From Hyphomonadaceae bacterium (GTDB lineage Bacteria; Pseudomonadota; Alphaproteobacteria; Caulobacterales; Hyphomonadaceae), in NCBI GenBank assembly GCA_024743315.1, contig JANSWU010000002.1, positions 124,001 through 188,000 on the forward strand: a stretch of 64,000 nt of DNA, written 5' to 3'. Shown here in pieces: positions 5,455-45,980 of this stretch. The notes below the pieces were generated by a model. That model saw nothing but the letters and a program-made list of their open reading frames with translations. It did no database searches and was not told the DNA's origin. Position 1 is the first letter of the stretch, and each line of letters starts with the position of its first letter. Both the position numbers and the translations under genes were made by a program.

Positions 5455-6801
5455 ATGACACGCAAATACTTCGGAACAGACGGAATCCGTGGCACAGCGA
5501 ACACACCTCCAATGACGCCGGAAATTGCTATGCGGCTTGGAATGGCGGCCGGAAAATACTTCCGAACCACGAGTTCACGCCGCCACAGTGTGGTGATCGG
5601 AAAGGATACGCGCCTGTCCGGATACATGATCGAGCCTGCGCTTGTGGCCGGATTTACATCGGTCGGCATGGACGTGACTTTGTTTGGTCCTTTGCCGACC
5701 CCAGGTGTGGCGATGATGACGCGCTCGCTGCGGGCGGATCTCGGGGTCATGATTTCTGCCAGCCACAATAGTTATGAAGATAATGGCATCAAATTGTTCG
5801 GCCCGAACGGCTATAAGCTTTCTGATGAGATTGAGCTGGAAATCGAAAGCCGTATGGATCGGGCGCTGGACGATAAATTGGCCGGCTCAGAAGAGCTCGG
5901 TCGAACCAAGCGGGTTGATGATGCGCAGGCGCGTTATGTCGAGATTGTCAAAGCCAGTTTCCCGCGCCGGATGAACCTGAAAGGCCTGCGCATCTGTATC
6001 GATTGTGCGAATGGCGCTGCTTATAAAGTGGCCCCCGCTGCCCTTTATGAACTCGGCGCAGAGGTCTTTAAAATCGGTGTCGAACCGAATGGCTTCAATA
6101 TCAATCTTGAGGTTGGCTCGACTGACACGCGCGCCTTGAAGGAGGCGGTCCAGACCTATCGCGCGGATATCGGGATTGCCCTCGATGGCGACGCCGATCG
6201 TTGCATTATTATTGATGAACAAGGCCATGAAGTGGATGGCGACCAGCTCATAGGCTTGATTGCGGCACATTGGAAAAAGCGGGGGCAATTGTCCCAACCG
6301 GGCGTTGTGACGACGGTGATGTCCAATCTCGGGCTTGAAAAGCATCTTGAAAAACTCGGGCTCAGCCTGGAACGCACCAAAGTTGGCGATCGTTATGTGG
6401 TCGAGCGGATGCGCGAAGGCGGCTTCAATCTGGGCGGCGAGCAGTCCGGGCATATTGTCATGTCGGATTATTCGACCACCGGGGACGGCTTGATGGCGGC
6501 CCTGCAAGTGCTGGCCGTCATGGTCGAGATGGAAAAACCGCTCTCTGAGATCGCACATGTGTTTGACCCAGTGCCGCAAAAACTGGTCAATGTTCGCTAC
6601 AAGAATGGCGCGCCGCTGGAAGAAGAGTCGGTTAAAGCCGCCATTGCGGATGCCGAGAAAAAGCTCGGCAAAAAAGGGCGCCTGGTGATCCGTAAATCCG
6701 GGACTGAGCCGCTTATTCGCGTGATGGCCGAAGCGACCAATGCCAAACTGATGGATTCAGCGGTGGAGACCGTGGCCGACGCCGTTCGCGCGGTCAGCTA
6801 A
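5455..6801 (+). CDS. glmM: phosphoglucosamine mutase
   Basis: GlmM interconverts glucosamine 6-phosphate and glucosamine 1-phosphate, the step after GlmS on the way to UDP-GlcNAc. The 448-residue length is typical. Visible motifs: [10 protein letters not shown] at the N-terminus, the phosphoserine loop [14 protein letters not shown] with catalytic Ser at about residue 103, the metal-binding DGDADRC loop, GEQSGHIV, and the C-terminal phosphate-binding [12 protein letters not shown]. Its 3' end overlaps the convergent ThiE-like gene by 8 bases. The nearest ribosome-binding site, AAGGA, is somewhat far from the ATG, but no alternative start keeps the KYFGTDG motif. Confidence 0.97.
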
Positions 6802-7411
6802 AGGCCGAGACGGCGCTCAGCCCGGCGCAGGCCGCAATTTGACCCGAATTTGTCGCGGTCACGCCGCCCAGGGCATAGATGGGCAGGGTGTTGCCGTTAA
6901 CCAGCGTTCTAAAGCGCGCCGTGCCGAGCGGTGTGCCCGCGCTTTTGCTTTTTGATGGATACACGCTGGAGACCAGAACCGCATCGATGCCGTATTGCTG
7001 CGCGCGCCAGATCGCCCGGCGCGAATGCGCACTCGCGGTTTGCACGGCGAACTGATCGCGCCATGCGCGTGCCTTAACGAGGCGGACTTCGGGCCAATGT
7101 ACGCCGTCGGCGCCGACGCGCTTCGCCAAGTCAGGATCTGCAGCAATCAACAAAGTCAGGTGACGCCGCTCGGACATGTCCGCGAGGGCATGGGCCATAT
7201 CTGTTCGGTCCGCCGCCCCGAAATGCCGATAGATGATCCCGCAGCCAGCCGGCAGAGTCTCGGCGATGGCGAGCGGGTCCGGGGTGCGGTCCGGGTCGGT
7301 CAGAAACAGGAGCGGGGGAAGATGGGTTGGAAAATGCGATTCCACTTGTCGGATCGCGGCGCGCCACTTGCGGGCCGTTGCGGCTTGGTGTTTCAACCCC
7401 ATGATGAGCAT
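6794..7411 (-). CDS. thiamine phosphate synthase-like protein (ThiE/TenI family)
   Basis: A 205-residue protein with a TIM-barrel pattern like ThiE/Ten[14 protein letters not shown] near the start, GADGVHWPE, a TASAHS turn, [20 protein letters not shown] (matching the pyrophosphate loop) and a C-terminal [11 protein letters not shown]. ThiE joins hydroxymethylpyrimidine pyrophosphate and thiazole phosphate to thiamine phosphate; TenI-like relatives act as aminohydrolase or thiazole tautomerase. No other thiamine gene is nearby and the protein is divergent, so the exact reaction is open. Either ATG at 7411 or the in-frame ATG three codons on could be used. The gene overlaps the divergent yggS start. 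Confidence 0.7.
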
Positions 7412-8063
7412 TGATACACAGCCCCTTCACATCCGCGAAGCCCGCGCACGCATTCTTTCTGAAATTGGAGGGGATGTGACTTTGGTGGCGGCCTCGAAGC
7501 GTCAACCGGAGGAACGGATTGCCGCAGCGCTTGACGCCGGGCAGCGCGTGTTCGGCGAAAACCGGGTGCAGGAAGCCATGGCGCGCTGGACTGACCGCCA
7601 GGCCGAATATCCAGATCTGGAGTTACGCCTGATCGGGCCCTTGCAGACGAACAAGGCAGAGGACGCTGTCACGCTGTTCGATGTGATCGAAACGCTCGAC
7701 CGGGAAAAGCTGCTCAAGGCCTTGATCAAGGCGGTGGCCAAAACCGGCGTGTCGCCGCCCGATCTTCTGATCCAAGTCAATACAGGAGACGAGCCGCAAA
7801 AAGGAGGGGCCAGCGTGGAGGGATTACCAGCTCTGTTGGCCGCCGCCCGCGAGACCTATCCGGGCGAGGTCGCAGGCTTGATGTGTATCCCGCCCGCAGA
7901 CGAGCCAGCCGGGCCGCATTTCGCCCTCTTGAAAAAGCTGGCCGATCAGTTCGACCTGCCAGTCGTGAGCATGGGGATGAGCGGCGATTATGCGCTGGCG
8001 GCCAGGCTCGGTGCGACCCATGTCCGTGTCGGGACGGCCTTCTTCGGAGCCCGCGAGACCTAA
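7401..8063 (+). CDS. YggS-family PLP-binding protein
   Basis: A 220-residue PLP-homeostasis protein with an alanine-racemase-like barrel. VTLVAASKRQPEE carries the PLP lysine; FGENRVQEA, LIGPLQTNKA, LLIQVNTGDEPQKGG, GLMCIPPA and VSMGMSGDYALAARLGATHVRVGTAFFG are all diagnostic. The frame is open for 56 codons upstream, but that region is antisense to the ThiE-like gene. I place the start at the ATG pair 7401/7404, which gives the usual length. No strong Shine-Dalgarno is visible. The gene overlaps its divergent neighbour at the 5' end and a TetR gene by 4 bases at the 3' end. Confidence 0.9.
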   Translation: MMSIDTQPLHIREARARILSEIGGDVTLVAASKRQPEERIAAALDAGQRVFGENRVQEAMARWTDRQAEYPDLELRLIGPLQTNKAEDAVTLFDVIETLDREKLLKALIKAVAKTGVSPPDLLIQVNTGDEPQKGGASVEGLPALLAAARETYPGEVAGLMCIPPADEPAGPHFALLKKLADQFDLPVVSMGMSGDYALAARLGATHVRVGTAFFGARET

Positions 8064-8644
8064 ATGGCGTGTTTGGCGATTAGCGCGTCCAGATGCGTGG
8101 TCACCGCAGTCATGATCAGATCGCGCCAGGCCGCATTCGGGATCAATTCCGTCGCTTCATGATCTTGCAGGCTGACATAGCCATGCGCCAGGGCCCAAAG
8201 CTGCAGCGCCGCCTCGCGTTTCTGTCGCCCGGACAGGGCTTGCGGGAGTACTTTTGAGACCAGGTGGGTGAGGCGATTGAAGGCTTCTTCGCCGACCGCC
8301 GTCGCCGCAGAGGAGGGGGTATAGGTGGGGTCCCCTCGACCGAAGATGAGCTGGTAATGGCCGCGCTGACGGGCCGCGAGGTCAATGTAATTTGACAGCC
8401 CTTGCAGCACTGCGTCGCGCGGTGAGGCGGCATCATCCTCCGCTTCGATGGCGCGCATCACCATTTGAAAGCCTTCAATATAAAGCGCGTCGAGAATGCC
8501 CTGCTTACCGTTGAAGTGATTGTAAATCCCGATGGTCGACAGCCCAGCACGTTTGGAGATGGCGCGGACACTCAAGCCGCTGGCACCTGATTCCGAGAAC
8601 AGGTCTGAAGCCGCTATTAGGATTTTCGCCTTAGATTCAACCAT
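8060..8644 (-). CDS. TetR-family regulator of the adjacent flavoprotein gene
   Basis: The protein has an N-terminal helix-turn-helix (ILIAASDLFSESGASGLSVR, AISKRAGLSTIGIYNHF) followed by a TetR_C-type helical region with LGL-like QGLSNYIDLAARQRGHYQLIFG. I prefer the ATG at 8644 (MVESKAKIL) over the in-frame GTG at 8656. Two 13-base palindromes lie within 50 bases upstream, between this gene and the divergent flavoprotein gene, so it most likely represses both. The ligand would be a substrate or product of that oxidoreductase. Confidence 0.88.
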   Translation of the reverse strand: MVESKAKILIAASDLFSESGASGLSVRAISKRAGLSTIGIYNHFNGKQGILDALYIEGFQMVMRAIEAEDDAASPRDAVLQGLSNYIDLAARQRGHYQLIFGRGDPTYTPSSAATAVGEEAFNRLTHLVSKVLPQALSGRQKREAALQLWALAHGYVSLQDHEATELIPNAAWRDLIMTAVTTHLDALIAKHAI

Positions 8645-8665
8645 GGGTAAATTCACTTGACTTTC

Positions 8666-8680
8666 AATAACGGTGTTATT
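8666..8680. promoter_or_regulatory. TetR operator site 1
   Basis: AATAACGGTGTTATT is a perfect dyad around a 3-base centre (AATAAC/GTTATT). It lies 22 bases upstream of the regulator's ATG and would overlap its promoter. Confidence 0.7.
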
Positions 8681-8688
8681 AGCAGATC

Positions 8689-8701
8689 ATAACACTGTTA
8701 T
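8689..8701. promoter_or_regulatory. TetR operator site 2
   Basis: ATAACACTGTTAT repeats the ATAAC-3-GTTAT dyad of site 1. The two centres are 22 bases apart, about two helical turns, so two dimers could bind on the same DNA face. It lies 34 bases before the flavoprotein ATG. Confidence 0.7.
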
Positions 8702-8734
8702 CAAGTCTGAGATTTTGACGCATAGGAGCCTGGA

Positions 8735-10135
8735 ATGTCGGCAGAGACGATTGAGGTTGATTATTTGATTGTAGGCGCTGGCGCCATGGGCATGGCCTTT
8801 GCCGATATTGTCCTGTCTGAAAGCGACAAGACGGTACTGATCGTTGATATGCACCAGAAGCCGGGGGGGCATTGGAATGATGCTTATCCCTTTGTCACGC
8901 TGCACCAACCGTCCGCCTATTATGGCGTCAGTTCAAAAGAACTCTCGAAAGGTGTGATCGATACGATCGGCTTGAACAAAGGCCTTCAGGATCTCGCCAC
9001 GGGCCCGGAAATCATGGCCTATTTCGACGAAGTGATGCGCTATCAATTCCTGCCGACCGGGCGCGTCACCTATTTGCCCATGTGCAAATATGAGGGCGAT
9101 GGCAAAATCTCGGCGCTGACTTCGGACAAGACCTATACGGTCAAAGCGCGTGAAAAGGTGGTCGATGCGACTTGGCTCAAGACCACCGTGCCATCGACGC
9201 ATGTGCCGAATTTTGAGGTCGCGGATGGGGTCAAAATGATCCCGCTCAATGATCTGCCCAAGGTTATGGAACAGCCATCTCGCTATGTCGTCATTGGCGG
9301 TGGCAAGACCGGGATCGATGCCGTTGTCTGGCTGCTGGAAAACCATGTTGATCCCGATCAGATCCATTGGGTGCGGCCGCGCGATGCCTGGCTGATGCGC
9401 CGCGAGACGACGCAGCCAGATCCGCGCTTTTTCGAGGCGACCATGGGCGCGCAAGCCGCGCAAATGGAAGCGATCGCCACCTCAACCTCGATTGATGACA
9501 TGTTCGACCGGATCGAACAGGCCGGCATCTTTGTCCGTATTGATGAAAGCGTGCGCCCGACCATGTTCCACGGCGCGACGATTTCGGATCCGGAGCTGCA
9601 CGAGCTGCGCAAGGTCAAGAATGTCATCCGCAAGGGTCGGATCCAGCGCATCGAGCCCAATCAGATCATCATGGACGAGGGCACGCTTCCGAATGATCCA
9701 GAGACTCTCTTCGTCGATTGTTCGGCCTGTGCAGTGGGTAATTCGGAAGAGACCACCGTGTTCGAGGGCGATACGATCCGTTTGCAGACTGTACGGACGG
9801 TGCAACCCGTCTTCAGCGCCGCTTTCATCGCGCATATTGAACTGACCCGGGATACCGAAGACGAGAAGAACCGGCTGTGCGCTGTCGTGCCTTTGCCCAA
9901 TCACGCCACGGATTGGATCCGCATGCAGAACGCGTTCATGATGAACCAGTTCAATTGGTCTCAGGAAAAAGATCTGCGCCAATGGCTGCGCGCGAACCGT
10001 CTCGATGGTTATTCGCAGCTGGTTTCAGGTATTCAGGAAGACGAGACGGAAAAACTCGCGATCATGAACCGCTTGCGCGAGCATTCCGTGCCTTCGGTGA
10101 TGAAGCTTCAGGAATATATGGCGCAAATCGCCTAG
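8735..10135 (+). CDS. FAD/NAD(P)-binding monooxygenase-like flavoprotein
   Basis: A 466-residue protein with two dinucleotide-binding motifs: VDYLIVGAGAMGMAFADI at residues 8-25 for FAD, followed by PGGHWNDAYPFVTLHQPSAY, which resembles the FxGxxxHxxxW-type region of class B flavin monooxygenases, and YVVIGGGKTGIDAVVWL near residue 190 for NAD(P)H. The C-terminal part is less conserved. Substrate unknown. AGGAG precedes the ATG by 7 bases. Control by the divergent TetR through two operators suggests an inducible detoxification or catabolic enzyme. The stop overlaps the next convergent small gene by 4 bases. Confidence 0.8.
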   Translation: MSAETIEVDYLIVGAGAMGMAFADIVLSESDKTVLIVDMHQKPGGHWNDAYPFVTLHQPSAYYGVSSKELSKGVIDTIGLNKGLQDLATGPEIMAYFDEVMRYQFLPTGRVTYLPMCKYEGDGKISALTSDKTYTVKAREKVVDATWLKTTVPSTHVPNFEVADGVKMIPLNDLPKVMEQPSRYVVIGGGKTGIDAVVWLLENHVDPDQIHWVRPRDAWLMRRETTQPDPRFFEATMGAQAAQMEAIATSTSIDDMFDRIEQAGIFVRIDESVRPTMFHGATISDPELHELRKVKNVIRKGRIQRIEPNQIIMDEGTLPNDPETLFVDCSACAVGNSEETTVFEGDTIRLQTVRTVQPVFSAAFIAHIELTRDTEDEKNRLCAVVPLPNHATDWIRMQNAFMMNQFNWSQEKDLRQWLRANRLDGYSQLVSGIQEDETEKLAIMNRLREHSVPSVMKLQEYMAQIA

Positions 10136-10332
10136 AGCTCATCCGGCTCGCTGCGATCGACGACATAATAGCCGCGCCGCGGATTGAACCCGATCATATT
10201 GGCGGGTGGATGCTCCGCCGCGTCGACCGCGTCATCATAGGTCTCATAAGGCCCATGCTCGCTCGTCGGGGTGACCAGGTAAAAGCTTCCCAGTTCGGGA
10301 CGCTCAGGCGAATACTCAGTCAGCTGAAACAT
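10132..10332 (-). CDS. small hypothetical protein (66 aa)
   Basis: A short soluble protein, MFQLTEYSPERPELGSFYLV at the N-terminus, then YETYDDAVDAAEHPPANMIG and RRGYYVVDRSEPDEL. AAGGAGG lies just before the ATG (about 10336-10342), supporting translation. It has no signal peptide or membrane segment and I do not recognise a family. Its stop overlaps the flavoprotein stop by 4 bases. The 82 bases between it and the next gene show no terminator. Confidence 0.65.
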   Translation of the reverse strand: MFQLTEYSPERPELGSFYLVTPTSEHGPYETYDDAVDAAEHPPANMIGFNPRRGYYVVDRSEPDEL

Positions 10333-10414
10333 ATGCAGCCTCCTTACGAAGCCCGCCCCGCATTAAGCTTTCGTTGATTCGTGTGGCCGGAATGTGTCAG
10401 CGCAATTGTGGCGC

Positions 10415-11215
10415 CTATCTCGCACAATCCGTTGGAGTATCGGCCGCGACGCGGGCAAAACTCATCCAGCCATAGCCGGAGACGGGGCCATAGGTCTCAA
10501 TATTGGCTTTCACGCCATCAAATACGCGGTCCTGTGGCAGACCGTGCGCGATCCAGGTGTCGAGGATCGGCTCAAGCGCCAGCGTCCCCTTGGCGCGATA
10601 GTCCTGCCGGACCGACCAGAATTGCCACCAGGAATGGAAGCGGATTTTGTAATTTCGATAAGTCGATCCATCCAAGGTCAGGTCGGGCAGCACTTCGGCC
10701 TGGAAATAATCGCCGGTAAAGATCTCGTGCAGCTCTTGCGGCGTCGAACTGGCAATTTCGACAACATAATTCTCATACCAATCATCGCCATTTTGCTTGG
10801 CCGCTTCGTCGCCTTGCCAATTGACGCTGATTTTTGGCCCCGCCCACCAGCGCCCGTCGCCGCTGAGTTCGGTCCCGTATGAGGTGCAGACGGCCAATCC
10901 GCTTTTGGCTTCTGCGACCGATCGAGGTGTATCCTCAAGATCCGTCAGACCGACATCCAGACCACCTTCGGGCGCGTCCTGGGCGACGCTAAAGAACAGC
11001 GTTTGATCCCTGAACTGGCGCGCTTTTGCGCCATTGAATGTGTCGCTCACCCAGGCCGATGAGGACAAGGTACCAAACTCGAAATGCTCGGTGGTCTGAT
11101 TAACGTCGCTGACCGCGATGCCCGGGGCGGATGGCGGCAGCAAAGACGTTTCGTCCGGGGTCATGGCGCACCCTGCTAGCAACAGCAATCCCGATACGGC
11201 TAAGTGTTTTATCAT
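10415..11215 (-). CDS. lipoprotein resembling GH11 xylanases
   Basis: MIKHLAVSGLLLLAGC is a lipoprotein signal, with GGGAGGGA upstream of the ATG at 11213-11215; this start is preferred over one five codons earlier. The mature part resembles the beta-jelly-roll of GH11: YENYVVEI aligns with the family's EYYVVE nucleophile strand, DGSTYRNY with DGSTYDIY, QFWSVRQDYRAKGT with QYWSVRQSKRTSGT, and NIETYGPVSG with ATEGYQSSG, which holds the acid/base Glu. Counting from five codons upstream, the two Glu are at about 153 and 245. The thumb loop before WSVRQ seems absent. Hydrolase activity is inferred only. Confidence 0.6.
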   Translation of the reverse strand: MIKHLAVSGLLLLAGCAMTPDETSLLPPSAPGIAVSDVNQTTEHFEFGTLSSSAWVSDTFNGAKARQFRDQTLFFSVAQDAPEGGLDVGLTDLEDTPRSVAEAKSGLAVCTSYGTELSGDGRWWAGPKISVNWQGDEAAKQNGDDWYENYVVEIASSTPQELHEIFTGDYFQAEVLPDLTLDGSTYRNYKIRFHSWWQFWSVRQDYRAKGTLALEPILDTWIAHGLPQDRVFDGVKANIETYGPVSGYGWMSFARVAADTPTDCAR

Positions 11216-16326: not shown

Positions 16327-17361
16327 TCACATTCGGTACGAAATGGTTTGGGAGGCTTCGGAAAAACTGCGCAGCTCATCGAGCACGATAAGTTCCATCT
16401 CCCCGACCCACAGATTGAGACCGCGCCCGGATGCCTCGGGTGAGGCAAGGTCCTCGATCGCCGCGTGATAATCCAGAAAGCGGGCCGAGGACCGTTTGGC
16501 CAGGCGGCCATGATCGAGAATGGCGATTGCAACGGCCGAGATGAAGGTGGCGGAGGCCAGAAAGTCGATCCAATGTCCCCATATCGCCGCATCGGCATAG
16601 AACACTCTCAACAGGAGAGATGTCAGGACGAGACTGGCCCCGGAAAGATACAACATATCCGACAGCGAGGCATAATATCTTTGCCCTCGCCGCAATCGAT
16701 CCACTTCGCTCATTGCGAAACGTTGTTGGTATTTGATCCGTAATTCCGTGTAGGCGGTGCGGGCGGTTTCGAGAATTTGCGGGTTACCTGGCTGGACGGG
16801 GGTGGACGGAGCAACCATCGCGTCGCCCGGGCGAAAAGTGTCCAACACGGATATGCCCGCGTTGAGTTCGTTTTCAATTTCGGCGACGATACGTTTCGAA
16901 AACGCTTCCACTTCGCGTTGCAGGTCTTGTGTGTCGCGCGCCCCCTCAGCCAACGCATAGGCCTGGAATTTTGCTGATCGCAATCGTTCAGTGGCAAATC
17001 GACTGAGCAGCCAGGTCGTCTTTTTCTTTGATGCGAGCAGGTAGAGTTGCAACATAATCCCGAGGGCCGCCAGCAAACCCAAAAACACGCTAAGCCAGAT
17101 CTGGTGCGGAAAATCCGGTATGATCAAGGCATCGGCGAAAGCGTAGATCGAGCTCGCGGTAATCAAGAGTACGGAGAGACGCCCGAACTGGTGATAGGTC
17201 CGCTTCGCTTGAACGGCACGGGCTTCGTAACGGTTGAAAGCCTCATCGATCACCGGATTGATGATCAAAGGCTCGATGCTCACAAAAAGCGCTGACGTTT
17301 CCTGGCTCGGAAAGACATCACGATTGGGCGTCTGAATGGGCAACCCTCCAGAGAAACACAC
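16327..17361 (-). CDS. four-helix membrane protein with SLATT/DUF4231-like features
   Basis: About 340 residues with two helical pairs: residues 61-80 and 86-110, then about 235-255 and 265-290. After the first pair comes TTWLLSRFATERLRSAKFQA, a match in style to the W-x-x-R-x-x-x-E-x-L-R segment after the helices of SLATT/DUF4231 proteins; the second pair is followed by SARFLDYHAAIEDLA. Between them is a charged helical cytoplasmic region. SLATT proteins are predicted pore-forming effectors in nucleotide-signalled conflict systems. Here it is the last gene after the TIR-TPR and small lipoprotein genes. The exact start is uncertain, since a GGAGGG sits just inside the frame. Confidence 0.6.
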   Translation of the reverse strand: MCFSGGLPIQTPNRDVFPSQETSALFVSIEPLIINPVIDEAFNRYEARAVQAKRTYHQFGRLSVLLITASSIYAFADALIIPDFPHQIWLSVFLGLLAALGIMLQLYLLASKKKTTWLLSRFATERLRSAKFQAYALAEGARDTQDLQREVEAFSKRIVAEIENELNAGISVLDTFRPGDAMVAPSTPVQPGNPQILETARTAYTELRIKYQQRFAMSEVDRLRRGQRYYASLSDMLYLSGASLVLTSLLLRVFYADAAIWGHWIDFLASATFISAVAIAILDHGRLAKRSSARFLDYHAAIEDLASPEASGRGLNLWVGEMELIVLDELRSFSEASQTISYRM

Positions 17362-17633: not shown

Positions 17634-19571
17634 TTAAGTAAAACCGAGTTCACTTTGCAAGCGTTGAAAATCCTGACGCTGGTGCAGCGGCAGCAGGAGT
17701 GGGTCAGTAAACAGATAGGTGAGGCCGGCATCGGTCGCCGCCTGTGCGTCTCGCAAGGCTGTCATCGCGGCATCCAGATCGCCCCATTGTGCGAGCACTT
17801 GCGCTTGCTGATACCGGCCTGCCTCGCCATATTCGGCAACCAATTCAGCCATTGCCGTTTCTGCCTCAGCGCGGCGATCGAGCCGGTCATAGCCGATCGC
17901 CAGGCAAGGTAGCCTGAGCAGGGAGGAGGGTTCCTTGAGGCAGGTATCGAGGGCCGTTTGATCGCGATCGAGCTGCAATAAGGAAAGCCCCATCCAGGCA
18001 TGCGAGTCGCTGATATTTTGCTCCAGGCGGACGGCTTGCTGATGGGCGCTGATCGCACTTTCATAGTCGCCAGCGACATAGTGGATAAGACCAGAACTAC
18101 GATGCAGGTTGGAGTTCAGCGGATCCAGTTCCAACGCAAAATCAATGGCGCTGCGGGCCGCTTGGGCTTGGCCAGTCAGCGCCGCATATTCGGCATAGCG
18201 CGCTTGTGTGACGGCGGAGCCGCGGCCAAGCTCGATCGAGCGTTCATAGGGGCCGCGCGCTTCGCGGATCTTCAATTGAGAGTCGAATAGGGACAAGGCG
18301 AGGGCCGAATGCGCCTCATCCAGATCCGGCCCCAGTTCGACCGCTTTTTGCGCGGCTTGAAGGGCCTGATCCTTATACGATTTCGCTTGCACCGGATCAT
18401 CTGAGAAATTGCCAAGTACAGTAAGCGTGGCCGACCGAGCGGCATGCGCGGCCGCGAAATTCGGGTCGAGGCGAATGGCATTATCGAACCGGGCGAGCGC
18501 CAGCAAATCGGTTTCGGTATTGCTGGAGGCTCGATAAATCGTCCAACCCCGAAGATAGGAATCAAAGGCGGCTGGATTGCTGGCCGCCCCAATATTGGTG
18601 TGTCCAAGGGCCGAGGACACGGCGAGCGAAAGCTCAGATGAAATCGCCGAGGTCAGATCCTGTTGGATGTCGAGCAATTGATCGAGGGATTGTTGATACG
18701 TGTCCGACCAGCGGACCTTTCCGGTGGTTCCGTCAATCAGGAAGGATGACACGCGCACAAGATCACTCGACGCCCGCACAGAGCCTTCCACGATAAAAGA
18801 AACCCCGAGTTCGCGCGCGGCTCGGCGGGCTTCCAGTTTTTGGGCCTCGATGGCCTCCGATGTCGAGCGGGCAACCACTTTCAAACCTGGATTGCGGGCC
18901 AGCGTGTTGCGCAATTCGGTCGAAATGCCCGCTGAGAGATAATCCTGATCCGGATCGCCGCTATCATTTTGAAAGGGCAAGACAGCAATGCCGTTTGATG
19001 AAAGTCTGTCGCCGTCGGGCCAGAGAAGCACGGCCGCGCCCACGGCACCGAGTGTTGCGATGCCACCAGCTCCAAGCATCAAGTGGCGCCTCGAAAGGCC
19101 ATGGATTTGGGGCGATTGCGAGACCGGCATGGGGACGAAATCGACCTCATGTAAATCCGAAATCGTATTGATCAGATTGGTCATTTCCGGCGCTGAAGTG
19201 GCACCGCGCCATTTCGATAAATCGATCACCTGAAACTGCTTGAAACCAAGCGGTGGCTCAGAGCCATCTAGCGTGATCGGGACCAGGCAAGATCGCTCGC
19301 GCCCGTTCATGGCCTCGTCCAGCACCCAATGCGACTTGATCGAATCCCTGGACCACAACACGACCACAGCGCGGGCAGACTCCAACGCCTCTCCGGTGGT
19401 TTCGACATATTTGACGCCGCCTTTCAGGACACCATCCCACCAGACCGAGAAGCCAGCCTGTTCGATCGCTCGAATGATTGGCAGGGCTTTTTCTTGATCG
19501 GCGCGAGAATAGCTGAAAAAGACGGAGGTTATCCGGCCATCATTTCCTTCGCGCTCCTCGGTCTCAGACAC
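17634..19571 (-). CDS. membrane-anchored TIR-domain protein with TPR repeats
   Basis: A 645-residue modular protein starting with GTG. Residues 13-145 are a TIR domain: VFFSYSRADQEKA, GFSVWWDG, RAVVVLWSRDSIKSHWVLDE; the Glu at about 86, four residues after Trp, is at the position of the NAD-hydrolysing Glu of catalytic TIRs. Residues 164-184 form one transmembrane helix. Next comes a FlgO/CadC-type segment (GIAVLPFQNDSGDPDQDYLS, FIVEGSVR) as found behind bacterial adenylate-cyclase-like and CadC-like sensors, then TPR-like helices from about 340 to the end. The TIR domain is cytoplasmic, the TPR part periplasmic by inference. Confidence 0.88.
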   Translation of the reverse strand: MSETEEREGNDGRITSVFFSYSRADQEKALPIIRAIEQAGFSVWWDGVLKGGVKYVETTGEALESARAVVVLWSRDSIKSHWVLDEAMNGRERSCLVPITLDGSEPPLGFKQFQVIDLSKWRGATSAPEMTNLINTISDLHEVDFVPMPVSQSPQIHGLSRRHLMLGAGGIATLGAVGAAVLLWPDGDRLSSNGIAVLPFQNDSGDPDQDYLSAGISTELRNTLARNPGLKVVARSTSEAIEAQKLEARRAARELGVSFIVEGSVRASSDLVRVSSFLIDGTTGKVRWSDTYQQSLDQLLDIQQDLTSAISSELSLAVSSALGHTNIGAASNPAAFDSYLRGWTIYRASSNTETDLLALARFDNAIRLDPNFAAAHAARSATLTVLGNFSDDPVQAKSYKDQALQAAQKAVELGPDLDEAHSALALSLFDSQLKIREARGPYERSIELGRGSAVTQARYAEYAALTGQAQAARSAIDFALELDPLNSNLHRSSGLIHYVAGDYESAISAHQQAVRLEQNISDSHAWMGLSLLQLDRDQTALDTCLKEPSSLLRLPCLAIGYDRLDRRAEAETAMAELVAEYGEAGRYQQAQVLAQWGDLDAAMTALRDAQAATDAGLTYLFTDPLLLPLHQRQDFQRLQSELGFT

Positions 19572-19651: not shown

Positions 19652-22033
19652 TCACCGTGCCGCCACACGGCATTCCGCAGGCTCGCCAGAGGGACGGTTG
19701 CCTTGAAGGTGCTGATTGATCCAGTCCGTATAGGCAGAGACTTTGGTATAAACGCCCGGCTTGTCATCGAGCTCGCAGCTTTTACGATTGGTGGTCTTGC
19801 CCCATGAGACAATGCCGACAAGCCTGGCGTCTCGGCCGCCCTGGCTGATCAAGGGTCCACCACTGTCACCCTTGCAGGTCTTTTGATAAGAATTGTGAGC
19901 GCAGAAGACGCCATCATGGACGCGTTTGACCCCAGAGCGTGTTGGACCCATGCCATCCAGCGCTGCGCATTCTTCATTGCTCATGACGCGCAGGGTGATG
20001 GTTTGCAGAGTCGCATAAGGTTCGATGCCAGAGGTCGGTTGGGTGCTTCCCCAGCCAAACACGGCGATTTTGTCATAGGGTTCGAGCTTGTCCTCCGGCG
20101 AGGGCAGTTGCAAATAGCTGACTTCCGTCACCGGGATCGTCCGACGGGCATTGGCGCCCGGCCATAATGGCGAACCGGGCGGCGATTTGACGACGTCAAA
20201 CTCCATTTCCAAACCGCCCTTCCGAACATTTGTGATCCGCGCCGTTCCGTCCGTGCTCCAGGTGAGCACGCGGTCATGATCTTCGAGGAAACCGGCCCCG
20301 AGAACGGCTTCGGCATGATAGATGCGATACAGTTCTTTGCCATTGGCGGCGTCCCAAAGCCGTGCGGTCGCATCGGCACTCCAGCTCAGCAGCTTGGTTT
20401 TGTCATCGGAGAAGACCAATTCATACAGCGCTTGTTCGTGATCAATCCGATAGACTTCGTCGCCCGTATTCATGTCCCAGAGCGTCGCGCCCGCTTCGTC
20501 TTTGATCAAAAGCGTATTGGTCTCGGGCATGATCCAGTGGTCTCGGACGGAGAGCTGTTGCGCCATACGGGCAATCAGTTTTCCGCTGTCGAGATCCCAG
20601 ATGCGGATTGTGCCATAATTGGTCCAGGTCAGCAGCCTGTTTTGATCGACCAGCTCGCGGACCTCAATGACTTTTTCGCTGAGACGATCAGTTTTATGAT
20701 CGAGATGGTGGAGAAGCTGGTTGGTTTCAGTATCCCAGATCCAGATTGAAGAGGTGCCGAAGCGCTCCGTGAAGGTCAGCAGTCGGTTTGAATCTGCGAG
20801 CCATTCAACATCGGTGACGAAATTACGGGTCATGACCGGTTCTGGCTGATCGAACACGATCATGTTTTCGAGTTTAGGCAACTCGCCACGCGGATGTGCA
20901 AGTTTGTTCTTGGGCACCCCGGTTTCAGCGTCGAGGCGCCAAACTTGATCCTCTGCCATGACGAAGACGTGTTCATTGTCGAGGATTTTGACACCGGTCA
21001 TTGGAGGCTGGTGGTCGGAAGGTTCAACCACAACACTAACGTTGAAATACCATTTCGGGTGGTCTGCTCCGGCATCCCAAGCCAGGATTTGATCATATTC
21101 ATCAATCCAAACATCGTCGGGAGGAAGGGAGAGCGATTCGATCCGCGCGCCGGTATCCGGCATATGTGTCCATAGGGGGCGGGATTCAAAACGATCTCGT
21201 CGTAAGATCGGTGATTGAGCTGGCAGGACCACACGTTGCATTTCGGAGATCTCAGATTGTGGCACTGGATCCCGAGTGAGTTCAGCGCCGCTGGCGATAT
21301 CCCACCGGCGTTTGGTCATGTCGGCACTCACAGTTTGCAGAACAGTTTCATTCTCCAACAGTGTGGCGACCTGGATTGCCTTAGGCTCGAAGGCTGGCGG
21401 ATAAGGTTTTGGCTTGAGATCGCCGGGCGTTGGAGAAAACCGCACCAGCGCGATGTCGTGCTGATAAACCACGCCTGACGCTCCGCGCTTGCAATCCTTC
21501 GAGCAATAGCAAATCACTTCATCGATCTCGTAGCGGTGACCTTCTCGCGAATCCAAACGGTGCATGCCGACACCGATCTGATACTTTTCGGCGACCATGG
21601 CCTCGTCCACGCAATGCGCTGCGGTCAAGGCCCAGCCGTCACCAATCATGCTGGCGCCGCAATAATGGCGCTCCTCCCAATCGCTGTGTGAGATAATCCG
21701 GTCACCGATGCGATACTGCTCCGGGGCGGTAATCTGCGCTTGAAACTGCGCCGCGCCGCGAATGGCAGCCACACTATTCATGGCGGGCGATGTTCTCGGC
21801 GGACAGCGTCCATCAATGAGGGGAGGGCATCGTTCCAGATGGAGATCATCATACCTTGTGAGCCCGAGACGGTAACCAATGCGCAGCCGTCGGAAAATGC
21901 TTCCTTCCGACGGTGCGTCTGCAAAGCCGCGCATGGTGACCGTTGCGGTCTGAGATTCGTCTTCTGAGGACTGGTGATGTGCGCAGGCCGAAAAAAACAG
22001 GATTGAAGCCGACAATAAAACGCGCCAATCCAT
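19652..22033 (-). CDS. trypsin-like protease lipoprotein split by a WD40-like beta-propeller
   Basis: MDWRVLLSASILFFSAC is a lipoprotein signal; GGGAGGA supports the ATG at 22031-22033 (793 residues). A chymotrypsin-fold protease starts at about 110: CGASMIGDGWALTAAHCV holds the catalytic His (about 140) and YQHDIALVRF the Asp (about 193). About 430 residues of WD40-like repeats then intervene (TKRRWDIASG, SIWIWDTETN, IRIWDLDSG, ATLWDMNTG, ARLWDAANG). The protease resumes at IAVFGWGSTQ and CKGDSGGPLISQGG, with Ser at about 724, and ends PGVYTKVSAYTDWI. The full triad is present. Lys occupies the usual S1 specificity position. Confidence 0.9.
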   Translation of the reverse strand: MDWRVLLSASILFFSACAHHQSSEDESQTATVTMRGFADAPSEGSIFRRLRIGYRLGLTRYDDLHLERCPPLIDGRCPPRTSPAMNSVAAIRGAAQFQAQITAPEQYRIGDRIISHSDWEERHYCGASMIGDGWALTAAHCVDEAMVAEKYQIGVGMHRLDSREGHRYEIDEVICYCSKDCKRGASGVVYQHDIALVRFSPTPGDLKPKPYPPAFEPKAIQVATLLENETVLQTVSADMTKRRWDIASGAELTRDPVPQSEISEMQRVVLPAQSPILRRDRFESRPLWTHMPDTGARIESLSLPPDDVWIDEYDQILAWDAGADHPKWYFNVSVVVEPSDHQPPMTGVKILDNEHVFVMAEDQVWRLDAETGVPKNKLAHPRGELPKLENMIVFDQPEPVMTRNFVTDVEWLADSNRLLTFTERFGTSSIWIWDTETNQLLHHLDHKTDRLSEKVIEVRELVDQNRLLTWTNYGTIRIWDLDSGKLIARMAQQLSVRDHWIMPETNTLLIKDEAGATLWDMNTGDEVYRIDHEQALYELVFSDDKTKLLSWSADATARLWDAANGKELYRIYHAEAVLGAGFLEDHDRVLTWSTDGTARITNVRKGGLEMEFDVVKSPPGSPLWPGANARRTIPVTEVSYLQLPSPEDKLEPYDKIAVFGWGSTQPTSGIEPYATLQTITLRVMSNEECAALDGMGPTRSGVKRVHDGVFCAHNSYQKTCKGDSGGPLISQGGRDARLVGIVSWGKTTNRKSCELDDKPGVYTKVSAYTDWINQHLQGNRPSGEPAECRVAAR

Positions 22034-22195
22034 AATCCGTCCTCCCAAACGCTATGCTTTTGTACCAGTTCGGCCAAATCGGAACAACTCTTCCAGTTTC
22101 GAGGTGCGGTAGGCGCAAATAAGGTGATCGATTTTCGCCAATTCACGCGTTAAAAGGACGCCAGATTCGATGATCACCGATCAAATGGGGGTGTC
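22034..22195. other. divergent intergenic region upstream of the protease cluster
   Basis: About 160 bases between the protease-cluster start and the divergent MFS gene. It must hold promoters for both. A GGTGATC/GATCACC inverted pair with a long spacer is visible near 22120-22177; I cannot identify a firm promoter or RNA gene. Confidence 0.35.
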
Positions 22196-41527: not shown

Positions 41528-42976
41528 ATGGTCGAGGCAGCGGCGCGCAAAGCGGGAATCTGGACCAAACTTGCCTATGGCTTTGGGGCGGTCGGCGACG
41601 GCGTCAAGAATAATGGCTTTGAGTATTTCCTGCTGCTTTATTACGGTCAGGTCCTCGGCGTAGACTTTGCGCTGGTTGGCGCCGCACTGCTCATTGCGAT
41701 GGTCATTGATGGGTTCACCGACCCGATCGTTGGCTATTGGTCGGACAATCTCCGGACTTCATTCGGGCGCCGCCACCCTTTCATGTATCTCGCCATCATT
41801 CCGGTCGGCATCGCCTATTATTTCGTCTGGAACCCGCCAAGCGGTCTCGAAGGTAATGCGTTGTTTCCCTATTTGCTCGCGATCACCATTGCGGTGCGCG
41901 TGTCCTTCACCTTCTATGACGTGCCCAGCAGCGCGCTGGTGGCCGAGCTGACGGATGATTATGACGAGCGAACCTCGTTCTTGTCGTTTCGATACGTGTT
42001 CGGTTGGATGGGCGGGCTCACAATTGCCGTGTTCGCTCTGCGCTTTTTGCTGGTGCCGACCGAAGAATATGGCAGCGGCTTTTTCAATATTGATGGCTAC
42101 CAGACCTACGGCCTGATCTCTGCCATCGTCATCTGTACCTCAGTCTTTGTTTGCGCCGCGGGTACCCATTCGCATATCCCGCATCTGCGCCAGCCGCCTG
42201 AGGCGCGCAAGATGACGATCGGACGGGTGTTCAGGGAGATTGGTGAAACGCTCTCGAACAAATCCTTCCTCTGGCTCTTCGTCGCCACGCTGTTCGGTTT
42301 CATGGCGTCCGGGGTCGCCGCGACGCTCAATTATTTCATCAATGGGTTCTTCTGGGAATTCACCACCAGCCAGACCGCTCTGCTCACCTTGAGTGTCGCC
42401 GTTTCGGCGATCATGGCCTTGGTGCTGGCACCGATTGTTTCCAGGACAATCGGCAAGAAACGCGGCGCCCTGATCATTGGGGTCTTGGCCTTCTCGATCG
42501 CCCCGATGCCGGTTTTACTCCGCCTCGCGGGCATCATGCCGGCCAATGGCACAGAAATTCTGTTCAACATCATTCTCGGCGTCACCGTCATCGATGTCGC
42601 CCTGATTATCACCTTCCAGATCCTGTCCAGCTCGATGATTGCTGATATCGTCGAGGATAGCGAGCTAAAGACGGGACGCCGGTCCGAGGGGATCTTCTTT
42701 GCGGGCATCCTGTTCATGCGCAAATTGGCGCGCGGCAGTGGCCTGTTCCTGGCCTCGCTGATCCTTGCTGCGGCTGAATTGTCTCGCGAAATGCAGCCCG
42801 GGGAACTCTCGGCTGAAACGCTGACCACGCTGGGGGCGGGGTATGCGTTTGGTCTGCTTGCGCTGTGGACGACAATGATCATCCTCTTGTCCCGCTACAA
42901 AATCAGCCGCGCCGATCATGAAGCCAATCTCGCCGCTTTGGAACGTGGCCGGGCGCAGGTGAATGTGGTTGAGTAG
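41528..42976 (+). CDS. GPH-family (MelB-like) sugar:cation symporter, copy 1
   Basis: A 482-residue twelve-helix MFS protein of the glycoside-pentoside-hexuronide group: KLAYGFGAVGDGVKNNGFEY, DGFTDPIVGYWSDNLRTSFG with the cation-site DP.VG.SD, GRRHPFMYLAIIPVGIAYYF and the loop after helix 10 IADIVEDSELKTGRRSEGIF. GGAGG precedes the ATG. It is followed 27 bases later by a clear paralogue. The sugar is unknown and no glycosidase is adjacent. Confidence 0.9.
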   Translation: MVEAAARKAGIWTKLAYGFGAVGDGVKNNGFEYFLLLYYGQVLGVDFALVGAALLIAMVIDGFTDPIVGYWSDNLRTSFGRRHPFMYLAIIPVGIAYYFVWNPPSGLEGNALFPYLLAITIAVRVSFTFYDVPSSALVAELTDDYDERTSFLSFRYVFGWMGGLTIAVFALRFLLVPTEEYGSGFFNIDGYQTYGLISAIVICTSVFVCAAGTHSHIPHLRQPPEARKMTIGRVFREIGETLSNKSFLWLFVATLFGFMASGVAATLNYFINGFFWEFTTSQTALLTLSVAVSAIMALVLAPIVSRTIGKKRGALIIGVLAFSIAPMPVLLRLAGIMPANGTEILFNIILGVTVIDVALIITFQILSSSMIADIVEDSELKTGRRSEGIFFAGILFMRKLARGSGLFLASLILAAAELSREMQPGELSAETLTTLGAGYAFGLLALWTTMIILLSRYKISRADHEANLAALERGRAQVNVVE

Positions 42977-43003
42977 GGTGGTGGGTTTTTTTGGGAAGTT
43001 GAA

Positions 43004-44452
43004 ATGACGGATGCTGTAGTGACGCCCCCGCACAAGCCCGGGCTGCTGACCCGGATCGCCTATGGCGTTGGCGGTGCGGCCGGCGGGATCAAGAATAATG
43101 GCTTCGATTATGTCCTGCTGCTCTTCTACAGTCAGGTGCTCGGGCTATCGGCTGTCTTGGTTGCCGCCGCCTTGTGGATCGCCTTGATCTTTGATGCCGT
43201 GTCCGACCCTGTGGTCGGCTATTGGTCGGACAATCTAAAAAACAGGCTCGGGCGACGCCATCCGTTCATGTATGCGGCCATGGTGCCGGTGGCGGTTGGC
43301 TATTATTTTGTCTGGAACCCGCCCATCGGTTTGGAGGGTCTAGGCCTGTTCGGCTGGCTGCTCATCCTGACCATCCTCGTGCGCCTGATGTATACGCTGT
43401 TCGAGGTGCCGCAACACGCTTTGTCGGCAGAGCTGTCGCAAGACTATGATGTGCGCACCTCGCTCATGTCCTTCCGTTATTTCTTTGCCTGGGTCGGCGG
43501 TCTGTCGGTTCAAGTCATTCTATTTGCCGTGCTTTTACAGCCGACCGAACAGGACGCGTCAGGATTCTTCTATTTACCCGGCTGGAATGCCTATGGCCTG
43601 CTAGGCGCGAGTTGTATCTTTTTTGCCATTCTGATCACATCGCTCGGCACGCATGGTCAGATCAAGCATCTCATGCCACCGCCGGCACCGCGCGATCTCA
43701 CCCCGTTCAAAGTGGTTGGCGAGATTTGGGAAACCGTCTCTAACCCGTCCTTCCGAGCGCTCTTCATTGCGACCCTGTTCGGCCTGCTGGCGACGGGGGT
43801 TTCAGCGACCTTGAACCAATACATAAATGGCTTCTTCTGGGAGTTCACGACAACGCAGATTTCGGGGCTGACAGCAGCCGTTTTTGCCTCCACCCTTCTA
43901 GCCTTAGTGCTCGCCCCAATTGCCGGAAAGGTGCTGGGCAAGAAGCGGGCAGCCATCACGATCGGGGTGTTTGCCTTTACGATTGCGCCCGCGCCGGTCT
44001 TTGCCCGGCTGCTCGGCTGGTTGCCGGAAAACGGGACCCAGGAACTCTATTACATCATCCTCGTCATCACCGTGATCGATATTGCCTTGATCATCGCTTA
44101 TCAGATGCTGGCCGCAGCCATGGTCGCTGACATTGTTGAAGAGAATGAACTCGCAACCGGTCGCCGCTCCGAAGGGGTGTATTTCGCCGGCATCAGCTTC
44201 ATGCGCAAACTGGCCCAGGGCGTTGGCGTGCTGAGCGCGTCTTTCATCCTTGCCATGGCGTCGATCACGCCCGGCATGCGACCCGAAAATGCCAGCTCAG
44301 ACTCGATCGCGACGCTTGGTCTTGGCTATGCCGCAGCGCTGCTGACGCTGTGGACGCTGATGCTGGTCGCGGTCAGCTTTTATCGCATCAGCCGCGATGA
44401 TCACGAGAAAAACCTGCAGGCCCTGGCGGCCAAGCGGGCCGAACAGGCCTAG
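43004..44452 (+). CDS. GPH-family (MelB-like) sugar:cation symporter, copy 2
   Basis: Also 482 residues and aligned along its whole length with the previous gene: RIAYGVGGAAGGIKNNGFDY, DAVSDPVVGYWSDNLKNRLG, GRRHPFMYAAMVPVAVGYYF, EFTTTQISGLTAAVFA, VADIVEENELATGRRSEGVY. The pair is a tandem duplication that has diverged considerably, so the two probably handle different substrates. There is a weak GGGAAG ribosome site before the ATG. Confidence 0.9.
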   Translation: MTDAVVTPPHKPGLLTRIAYGVGGAAGGIKNNGFDYVLLLFYSQVLGLSAVLVAAALWIALIFDAVSDPVVGYWSDNLKNRLGRRHPFMYAAMVPVAVGYYFVWNPPIGLEGLGLFGWLLILTILVRLMYTLFEVPQHALSAELSQDYDVRTSLMSFRYFFAWVGGLSVQVILFAVLLQPTEQDASGFFYLPGWNAYGLLGASCIFFAILITSLGTHGQIKHLMPPPAPRDLTPFKVVGEIWETVSNPSFRALFIATLFGLLATGVSATLNQYINGFFWEFTTTQISGLTAAVFASTLLALVLAPIAGKVLGKKRAAITIGVFAFTIAPAPVFARLLGWLPENGTQELYYIILVITVIDIALIIAYQMLAAAMVADIVEENELATGRRSEGVYFAGISFMRKLAQGVGVLSASFILAMASITPGMRPENASSDSIATLGLGYAAALLTLWTLMLVAVSFYRISRDDHEKNLQALAAKRAEQA

Positions 44453-44537
44453 CTTTTGCTAATGAAAACAACAATCTAACTGAAATGTCATGTCTGCCTA
44501 ATTGCCTCCGCCAGTGCGCCGGAATAGAGCCATATTC

Positions 44538-45980
44538 ATGACCTATGTTCGCAGCATGACAAAACACGTTTCGAAGTTCCTGGTGGCCGTGGTTGTTCTC
44601 CTGGTCGCCCTTGTGCTCGTGATCGTAAGCCCGCTTTATGGCGCGGCTTCGGCGCAGAGCATCTGGGACAAAGTGGTGCCGCAATCGCAGGCCGAAATTG
44701 AACTCAGCTATGCCCCACTGGTGCGCGAAGTGTCGCCGGCGGTGGTCAATGTCTACACCCAGAAAACGGTGCAACGCCGGATGACCATGCAGGAATTCAT
44801 GTATGGTCGGCGGTTCGGTGGGCCGGACAGCCGCAGTGTTCAAAACTCGCTCGGCTCTGGCGTGATTGTCGGGGAAGACGGCGTCGTCGTGACCAATAAT
44901 CACGTGATTGATGGCGCCGATGAAGTCGTTGTCGTGCTCGCGGATCGGCGTGAATATCCAGCCGAGCTGATCCTCGCGGATGAGCGTACCGACCTCGCTG
45001 TGCTGCGCATTGATACAGAAGGCACGCCGCTGCCAACCCTTGATTATGCCAATACGATTGGCGTTGAGGTCGGCGACCTTGTCCTCGCCGTTGGCAATCC
45101 GTTTGGGGTCGGTCAAACCGTGACCACGGGCATCATTTCGGCGACCGCGCGAACCGATGTCGGCGTATCCGACTATGCCTTCTTCCTGCAAACCGATGCC
45201 GCGGTGAACCCCGGCAATTCTGGCGGCGCGCTGGTTAATACGCGCGGAGAACTCGTCGGCATTAACACGGCCATCTTCTCACGCTCTGGTGGTTCGAACG
45301 GCATTGGCTTTGCGATCCCGTCTGAAATGGTCAAACGGGTCGTCGACGCCGCGGTCAATGAGGGCACATTGGTGCGCCCCTGGCTCGGTCTGAAAGGCCA
45401 ATCCGTGACCTTTGATATTGCCAAGGCGCAAGGCCTGGAACGTCCGGTCGGCGTAATCATTACTGAAGTCTATGATGATAGTCCGGCGGATCGTTCTGAA
45501 TTGCGCCGAGGCGATCTGATCCTCAGCATTGATGGCCGCGAAGTGTTTGACGAGCGCGGCTTGAAATTTCTCGCCGCGACCAAGTCGCCTGGAGAAGATG
45601 TCCTGTTGCGCGTGCTGCGCGGCGGCAATGAGCAAAATGTCCTGGCCCGGCTCGCCCCACCGCCCGGCACCAGTGAAGCTGAAGTTGTCTTGCTCGAAGG
45701 GCGGCATCCGTTCACAGGCGCTGAAGTGGCTGAGCTATCACCGCGCCTGGCCGAGGAGCTCGGCCGCGATCCGTTCGATAGCGGCGTTCTGGTCACCCGT
45801 GTCATGCGCCGTGCCTATGCCCGCCGGATCGTGCGTTCGGGCGATATCATCCAGGCCATTGATGGCCAGCCGATCAAGACGCTCGACGATTTGGATGCCG
45901 CGCTCGATCGCGACTCCGGTCGCTGGGAGATCGAGATTGACCGCAATGGTCGCAGCATCAGTGGGTTCGTGACGCTGTAA
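44538..45980 (+). CDS. HtrA/DegP-family periplasmic serine protease
   Basis: 480 residues from the ATG at 44538. A signal anchor (FLVAVVVLLVALVLVIV) is followed by a trypsin-like domain with triad His about 122 (VVTNNHVIDG), Asp about 152 (ERTDLAVLRI) and Ser about 228 (NPGNSGGALVNT). Two PDZ domains follow (RPWLGLKGQSVTFDIAKAQG, VTRVMRRAYARRIVRSGDII). It degrades or refolds damaged envelope proteins, with DegS-like possibilities given the signal anchor. No heat-shock promoter identified. Confidence 0.92.
   Translation: MTYVRSMTKHVSKFLVAVVVLLVALVLVIVSPLYGAASAQSIWDKVVPQSQAEIELSYAPLVREVSPAVVNVYTQKTVQRRMTMQEFMYGRRFGGPDSRSVQNSLGSGVIVGEDGVVVTNNHVIDGADEVVVVLADRREYPAELILADERTDLAVLRIDTEGTPLPTLDYANTIGVEVGDLVLAVGNPFGVGQTVTTGIISATARTDVGVSDYAFFLQTDAAVNPGNSGGALVNTRGELVGINTAIFSRSGGSNGIGFAIPSEMVKRVVDAAVNEGTLVRPWLGLKGQSVTFDIAKAQGLERPVGVIITEVYDDSPADRSELRRGDLILSIDGREVFDERGLKFLAATKSPGEDVLLRVLRGGNEQNVLARLAPPPGTSEAEVVLLEGRHPFTGAEVAELSPRLAEELGRDPFDSGVLVTRVMRRAYARRIVRSGDIIQAIDGQPIKTLDDLDAALDRDSGRWEIEIDRNGRSISGFVTL

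Follow-up and report, generated by a model that had tools for sequence, protein, structure and literature searches.

The window analyzed in this study, a stretch of 64,000 nucleotides from a marine-type Hyphomonadaceae bacterium, encoded a serine protease of the S1 family whose two beta-barrels are separated in the chain by a WD40-type beta-propeller, and the gene for this protease was paired with a gene encoding a predicted TIR membrane receptor. Both the architecture and the gene pairing are firm results. The catalytic triad was conserved throughout the group of proteases that share the layout, and protease and receptor sequences diverged in a correlated manner. The occurrence of the protease beside a TIR membrane-protein gene in the relatives examined suggests that the bacterial cell envelope contains a protease-receptor system of a kind not described before.

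The protease gene (positions 19652..22033, minus strand) was a single open frame of 793 codons plus a stop, with the ATG at 22033 and the stop codon at 19654-19652, and encoded a protein of 793 aa; an alternative TTG start is possible at 22048. All of its features given below are on the minus strand. The protein began with a hydrophobic N-terminal export signal, judged by eye (21974..22033), with a cysteine at residue 17, through which it is possibly a lipoprotein with a non-canonical lipobox. The first beta-barrel (residues 95-205; 21419..21751) contained His140 in the motif LTAAHC (21614-21616) and Asp193 in HDIALVRF (21455-21457), and the second (residues 637-776; 19706..20125) contained VFGWGSTQ, Ser724 in KGDSGGPL (19862-19864), and Lys718 (19880-19882), which corresponds to specificity position 189 when numbered by alignment to GDSGG. 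Approximately 430 residues, most of them forming the WD40-type propeller (residues 218-615; 20189..21382), separated Asp193 from the second barrel with Ser724. The coordinates and the four motifs agreed fully with those listed in an earlier note on this DNA.

The intact protein matched the Pfam Trypsin profile (PF00089) at 131 bits, against a cut-off of 20.6. The protein was also split into an N half, a middle part, and a C half, and each piece was searched apart. The N half alone matched positions 23-97 of the Trypsin profile (E 1.9e-12) and the C half alone matched positions 103-220 (E 1e-25), both above the cut-off. Together, the two halves therefore cover the protease profile past position 23, of which nothing was lost or repeated at the insert. 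The middle 425 residues matched WD40 propeller profiles (best E 2.5e-17), with no profile reaching its own curated cut-off (PF00400, 21.4 of 27 bits), and the propeller was assigned from these matches and from the strands of a structural model. The His, Asp, and Ser residues of the triad were present in order with the GDSGG context, as were the paired cysteines of the S1 family, and Pfam gave no alpha/beta-hydrolase match, which assigns the catalytic domain to S1 and not to S9. On the other hand, the Arg-Ile-Val-Gly-Gly activation site was absent from the window protease, and the Ile-Val-Gly-Gly end was missing in all seven propeller-containing sequences inspected. Two separate genes or a frameshift were ruled out, since the window and the relatives each had a single open frame. 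The GC content of the protease gene, the receptor gene, and the SLATT-like gene described below was 0.55-0.58, compared with 0.577 for the window, and offered nothing striking in favor of a foreign origin.

The insert was located between positions 97 and 103 of the Trypsin profile, which is the linker that joins the two barrels. This linker follows the back of the enzyme in known S1 structures. The earlier note had placed the insert in a surface loop after the Asp strand, from where a target bound by the propeller could be held against the active site. A propeller that faces the active site is less likely because the insert is in a linker that runs behind the enzyme. A closed propeller, the ends of which are adjacent, could occupy the linker without separating the barrels, and the sequence suggests that both barrels pack into one fold. 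At the level of sequence, the layout shows that an entire propeller can be accommodated between the two barrels of an S1 chain.

Structure prediction for the full chain was a check proposed in the same note. The AlphaFold2 model of the window protein was based on an alignment of 11 rows and had a mean pLDDT of 69 and a pTM of 0.61. It contained 28 strands, which were grouped by hand into seven blades of four strands each, spanning residues 220 to 613 (220-256, 347-379, 405-445, 455-490, 496-531, 536-572, and 577-613), with a low-confidence stretch at residues 266-346. In the protease halves, most blocks of ten residues had a pLDDT of 70-91 and some of 55-69. Among the matches listed, the window model resembled WD40 proteins of the PDB only loosely (TM of at most 0.44, rmsd of at least 10 A). 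The model of a related protein, L042 (pTM 0.66), matched solved propellers, among them an eight-bladed designed protein, with TM values as high as 0.76, and a ring-like structural match thus holds for the L042 model only and not for that of the window. By title, the 50 PDB matches listed for the window model or for L042 were propeller-type proteins or complexes containing them, and none was a chain with both folds.

Homologues with the same insertion, which the earlier note had proposed to search for, were found: the layout was shared by ten loci with nine distinct sequences. These loci were obtained from 200 and 398 whole genomes and from a named genome collection, in which a query with the single protein gave no match and a query with the alignment gave matches. 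Besides the window, they comprised a Henriciella MAG (L016/L026), a Hyphomonas MAG (L017/L027), a Marinicaulis MAG (L018/L028), Hyphomonas BRH_c22 (L021/L029), and an Alphaproteobacteria MAG (L020/L042), each of which is one contig under two names, the last a near-copy of BRH_c22; three loci from the same order as the window (L019, L135, and L136); and Aurantiacibacter marinus KCTC 23554, a cultured strain of Erythrobacteraceae (L025). The recurrence of the layout in ten loci, including one isolate genome, ruled out an assembly artefact or chance, and the claim that a propeller lies inside the protease is upheld by WD40 profile matches between two Trypsin-matching halves and by triad residues that were kept in 10/10 members. 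The spacing from the His motif to GDSGG was bimodal, with 133-201 residues in 94 of the 104 distinct proteases in the loci compared and 437-678 residues in the other 10; one protein with long spacing, L057, was rejected as an insert since it consisted of two tandem proteases, the sole such case among the 10. In a draw of 385 genomes from the class (E of at most 1e-25), no match to both halves was found besides that of the window itself, and in a draw of 398 genomes from the phylum the sole match to both halves other than the window was G812, a relative without the interruption. No match to both halves was found among 72,556 plasmid records (E of at most 1e-15).

In the receptor tree, the ten propeller rows were on one side of a branch, except that the plain row L034 was placed among them. 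The protease tree was less resolved, and its odd plain row was L098, a long branch. Owing to this one plain row in each tree, the insert needs two changes on both. A single propeller clade was not rejected (AU p of 0.08 for the receptor tree and 0.35 for the protease tree); therefore, the insert may have been gained once, whether or not a loss followed, or gained twice. A TIR-like start was recognized by eye in 6 of the 12 other WD40 loci inspected, and L121, from the window's order, encoded a TIR-WD40 protein with very similar blades ("LTWSxDGTARLWD"). The propeller may have been drawn from a local pool of TIR-WD40 proteins.

Position 189 forms the floor of the specificity pocket and is Asp in trypsin. 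Lys was found at this position in all ten propeller members, in place of the Asp that defines the trypsin type, which predicts a cleavage preference unlike that of trypsin. Within the best 80 of at least 272 proteases, Lys189 occurred in 11, all of which were linked to the receptor gene, and the 25 receptor-linked proteases in this set had Lys (11), Ser (8), Asp (5), or Gln (1) at position 189. Lys189 is thus not needed for the pairing, given the 14 linked proteases with Ser, Asp, or Gln. An acidic juxtamembrane loop of the receptor accompanying Lys189, and a basic loop accompanying Asp189, were considered and gave no pattern in the readable rows, and no juxtamembrane cleavage motif that matches residue 189 was found in the receptors. 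An open-access literature search returned no report on Lys189.

The partner gene (17634..19571, minus strand; 645 aa) was located 80 bp downstream of the protease gene and encoded a TIR domain, an Arg-Arg pair followed by a membrane anchor, a TolB/FlgO-like part, and TPR repeats. The TIR_2 match (70.1 bits, cut-off 28) and the TPR match in Pfam were above their cut-offs, whereas the TolB-like label derives from a weak match to TIGR02800 (E 8.7e-5, below cut-off). Glu86 in WVLDEA, an instance of the WVxxEA motif, was conserved in 28/28 aligned TIR rows, two of them identical; these rows represent 28 of 34 loci, as six without a recognizable start were omitted. We take the glutamate of WVxxEA to be the catalytic residue of TIR NADases. 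The anchor was predicted by hydropathy at residues of about 164-184, after SRRHLM (19020..19082, minus strand), and the Arg-Arg that immediately preceded it in most receptors fits an N-inside orientation. The TIR domain is therefore probably cytosolic, with the TolB/FlgO-like and TPR parts in the periplasm. ThsB models of PADLOC matched the partner TIR only weakly and partially (E 0.001-0.006), and no ThsA-like gene was found among the part of the neighbours that was scanned with Pfam.

The pairing of the protease and receptor genes was well supported. The TIR/TPR partner adjoined the protease in 10/10 propeller loci with a gap of 78-1379 bp; in L020/L042, the contig ended within its TIR part, and the 1.4 kb gap between the two genes in L021/L029 contained a transposase-like fragment. 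The genes were convergent in nine of the ten loci and co-directional in the window, and the outer flanks differed between most of the loci. The partner was also present beside uninterrupted relatives of the protease, including those of sphingomonads and Lysobacteraceae. Among the best 80 of at least 272 protease-similar loci, which were fetched with the protease alignment alone, 25 had the partner (only its TPR part in L047), including 18 of the 19 rows L025-L043, where the exception, L031, was a contig of 4.9 kb. In the reverse direction, a protease adjoined 12/13 receptor homologues at E < 1e-100 (200 relatives, that of the window included) and 0/5 weaker homologues with fetched surroundings. 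Receptor copies were also found by themselves: a second copy in G190 (L173, 7184-9190), a close homologue, had no protease homologue within 16 kb; a copy on a Novosphingobium plasmid had no protease within 6 kb; and, by tblastn, L173, L175-L178, L180, and L201 contained a receptor and no protease homologue. Protease and receptor distances were strongly correlated (Mantel r 0.894, with 0/9999 permutations as high) over 33 rows that remained after one duplicate had been dropped. Shared descent alone can explain this correlation.

The third gene of the window cluster (16327..17361, minus strand; 344 aa) encoded a SLATT/DUF4231-like multi-TM protein with Pfam matches below curated cut-offs (DUF4231, E 1.9e-4, 22.3 vs. 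24.7 bits; SLATT_3, E 0.05, 14.3 vs. 26.3 bits), and the SLATT profile matches of the L025 and L136 proteins were likewise below the cut-offs. Five of the ten propeller loci contained a SLATT-type gene, which was of the window type in four, with homologues adjoining the protease in L019, L135, and L136, and SLOG-SLATT-like in L025. No SLATT homologue was found in the other five, of which L018 and L020 end near the receptor. A caspase-like gene was present in the clusters of L020/L021 and L074. In L020 (6635-12550) and L021 (10182-16255), the propeller protease was accompanied by another S1 protease, which has a DUF4384 domain, and by a caspase-like (C14) protein with a hydrophobic start. In L074, a Sphingomonas MAG (5707-10786), genes for a caspase-like protein, an uninterrupted S1 protease, and a TIR-TPR receptor lay consecutively on the same strand. 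L169 (6179-10927) and its relatives L170-L172 and L174 encoded the receptor together with two S1 proteases that are uninterrupted, with only one of the two proteases listed whole in L172; a SLOG-SLATT-like gene was found in four of these five loci (L169-L172, not L174). The second protease of L169 had ADSGG in place of GDSGG, so that the oxyanion glycine was altered.

Within the window's family, L196 (5797-8399) and L197 (4304-6903) contained a window-type SLATT gene directly beside a different TIR gene, which in L196 was fused to a formylglycine-generating-enzyme (FGE-sulfatase) domain according to Pfam. This arrangement suggests a TIR-SLATT unit that is independent of the protease. By tblastn, L198 and L199 contained a SLATT-like gene and no TIR homologue. 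Genes near the window locus included MFS- and CorA-like genes (by eye) and a mechanosensitive channel, and the region is not obviously a defence island. Elsewhere in the window (41528-45980), two adjacent MFS_2 sugar transporters of 482 aa each were followed by a protease with Trypsin_2 and PDZ domains (DegP-type).

In our leading reading, to which we assign a probability of approximately 0.4, the exported protease would feed or activate the TIR receptor that spans the membrane, and the propeller, mounted at the rear, would serve for recognition or docking. The protease and the single-pass membrane receptor would form a conserved two-gene unit with a recurrent further member, which would be a multi-TM protein of the SLATT-like type or, at certain loci, a caspase-like protease. 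The propeller would bind a periplasmic ligand, which may then be the trigger, or the receptor itself, in which case the two proteins would be in contact. The protease would then cleave the outer part of the receptor or a receptor ligand, and the signal would pass inward to the cytosolic TIR enzyme, which would convert NAD into a nucleotide signal. The response would be executed by the SLATT-like protein or the caspase, possibly in defence or under envelope stress. A bolder form of this idea, which we consider doubtful, is that bacteria possess a counterpart, in plan, of the Toll pathway of animals: an exported trypsin-type protease, steered by its propeller as a built-in sensor, would activate a transmembrane TIR receptor by cleaving it, NAD-derived nucleotides would act on a membrane pore or a caspase, and the propeller would have come from the TIR-WD40 pool.

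Somewhat more doubtful still is that the propeller serves as a substrate-capturing exosite of a protease for envelope quality control or nutrition, in which case the receptor would report on the protease or use its peptides and would have no immune role. The export signal judged by eye, the intact triad, and a WD40 platform of a kind typical of protein binding all fit such an enzyme, as does the rear mounting of accessory domains that is usual in modular S1 proteases; however, the company of TIR, SLATT-like, and caspase genes would then be unexplained. It is also conceivable, and on balance unlikely, that the protease acts as a negative control, trimming or degrading the periplasmic part of the receptor and thereby keeping the TIR domain off until it is freed by loss of the protease, for example through a phage inhibitor. 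The pairing of the genes and their correlated divergence fit this possibility equally well, and the convergent genes in 23 of the 25 linked loci (best 80 of at least 272) suit partners that are expressed separately, although the genes are co-directional in the window, L034, and L074. That the pairing reflects mere shared ancestry of neighbouring genes, the products of which do not cooperate, appears improbable. Part of the sampled loci came from related families, and common descent predicts a correlation of distances; in contrast, the pair persisted across Hyphomonadaceae, Parvularculaceae, Erythrobacteraceae, Sphingomonadaceae, and Lysobacteraceae and was kept despite changed flanks and, in three loci, a changed orientation. 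Least probable of all is gating of the protease by the propeller, in the manner of prolyl oligopeptidase, so that only substrates that are small or unfolded gain access. Serine proteases of family S9 are indeed known to have a propeller nested in their chain, but the insert is in the linker between the barrels, which in known S1 folds is remote from the catalytic cleft, and uninterrupted relatives have the same partner, which makes gating unnecessary for the module.

A functional pairing would mean that bacteria run a pathway in the envelope from a protease to a TIR receptor, and the origin of protease-triggered TIR immunity could then be tested in a cultured marine isolate. Independently of the partner, a propeller between the S1 barrels provides a natural template for tethered, targetable proteases.

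The view of the earlier note that no described family has this layout held up in Pfam, NCBIfam, PADLOC, the PDB titles listed, and the open-access literature. No model of the layout was present in NCBIfam, PADLOC, or Pfam, none of the 50 and 60 PDB matches listed had it by title, and no report of a propeller inside a trypsin domain was found in the open-access literature; for a propeller between the S1 barrels, the databases and literature searched thus gave no earlier report. According to the accessible parts of two related studies, trypsin-like proteases, TIR, SLATT, and propellers recur in conflict systems, where SLATT was predicted to act as a pore that responds to nucleotides (Kaur et al., 2020; PMC7159879), and in nuclease-protease pairs the protease is reported to activate its partner (PMC12799240). 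As far as those parts extend, the systems described have MoxR-vWA, GTPase, or NucA cores, fusions, and MBL nucleases, without a propeller inside the trypsin domain and without the receptor pair of the window. Thoeris and other TIR systems share with the window a TIR domain with the conserved glutamate, and the SLATT-like and caspase-like neighbours recall their signalling from TIR to effector; the window receptor differs in being membrane-anchored, with a TolB-like/TPR exterior, and in being paired with an exported S1 protease. With the S1 family (PF00089), the window protease has in common the triad, GDSGGP, the paired cysteines, and the profile from position 23 to the end, and it differs by the linker propeller of approximately 400 residues, by Lys189, and by the lack of an Ile-Val-Gly-Gly end. 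In S9 prolyl oligopeptidase, a beta-propeller is also nested within the serine protease chain, where the catalytic domain has an alpha/beta-hydrolase fold. The nested propeller is therefore shared, whereas the window protease has the two-barrel S1 fold and a WD40-type propeller at another site, and the two enzymes are unrelated. Among the PDB sequence matches listed for the C half, plasma kallikrein, urokinase, and tryptase ranked best. In plasma kallikrein and urokinase, accessory domains are mounted behind the protease, close to the interdomain linker; these domains precede the protease in the chain, whereas that of the window protein is inside the protease itself.
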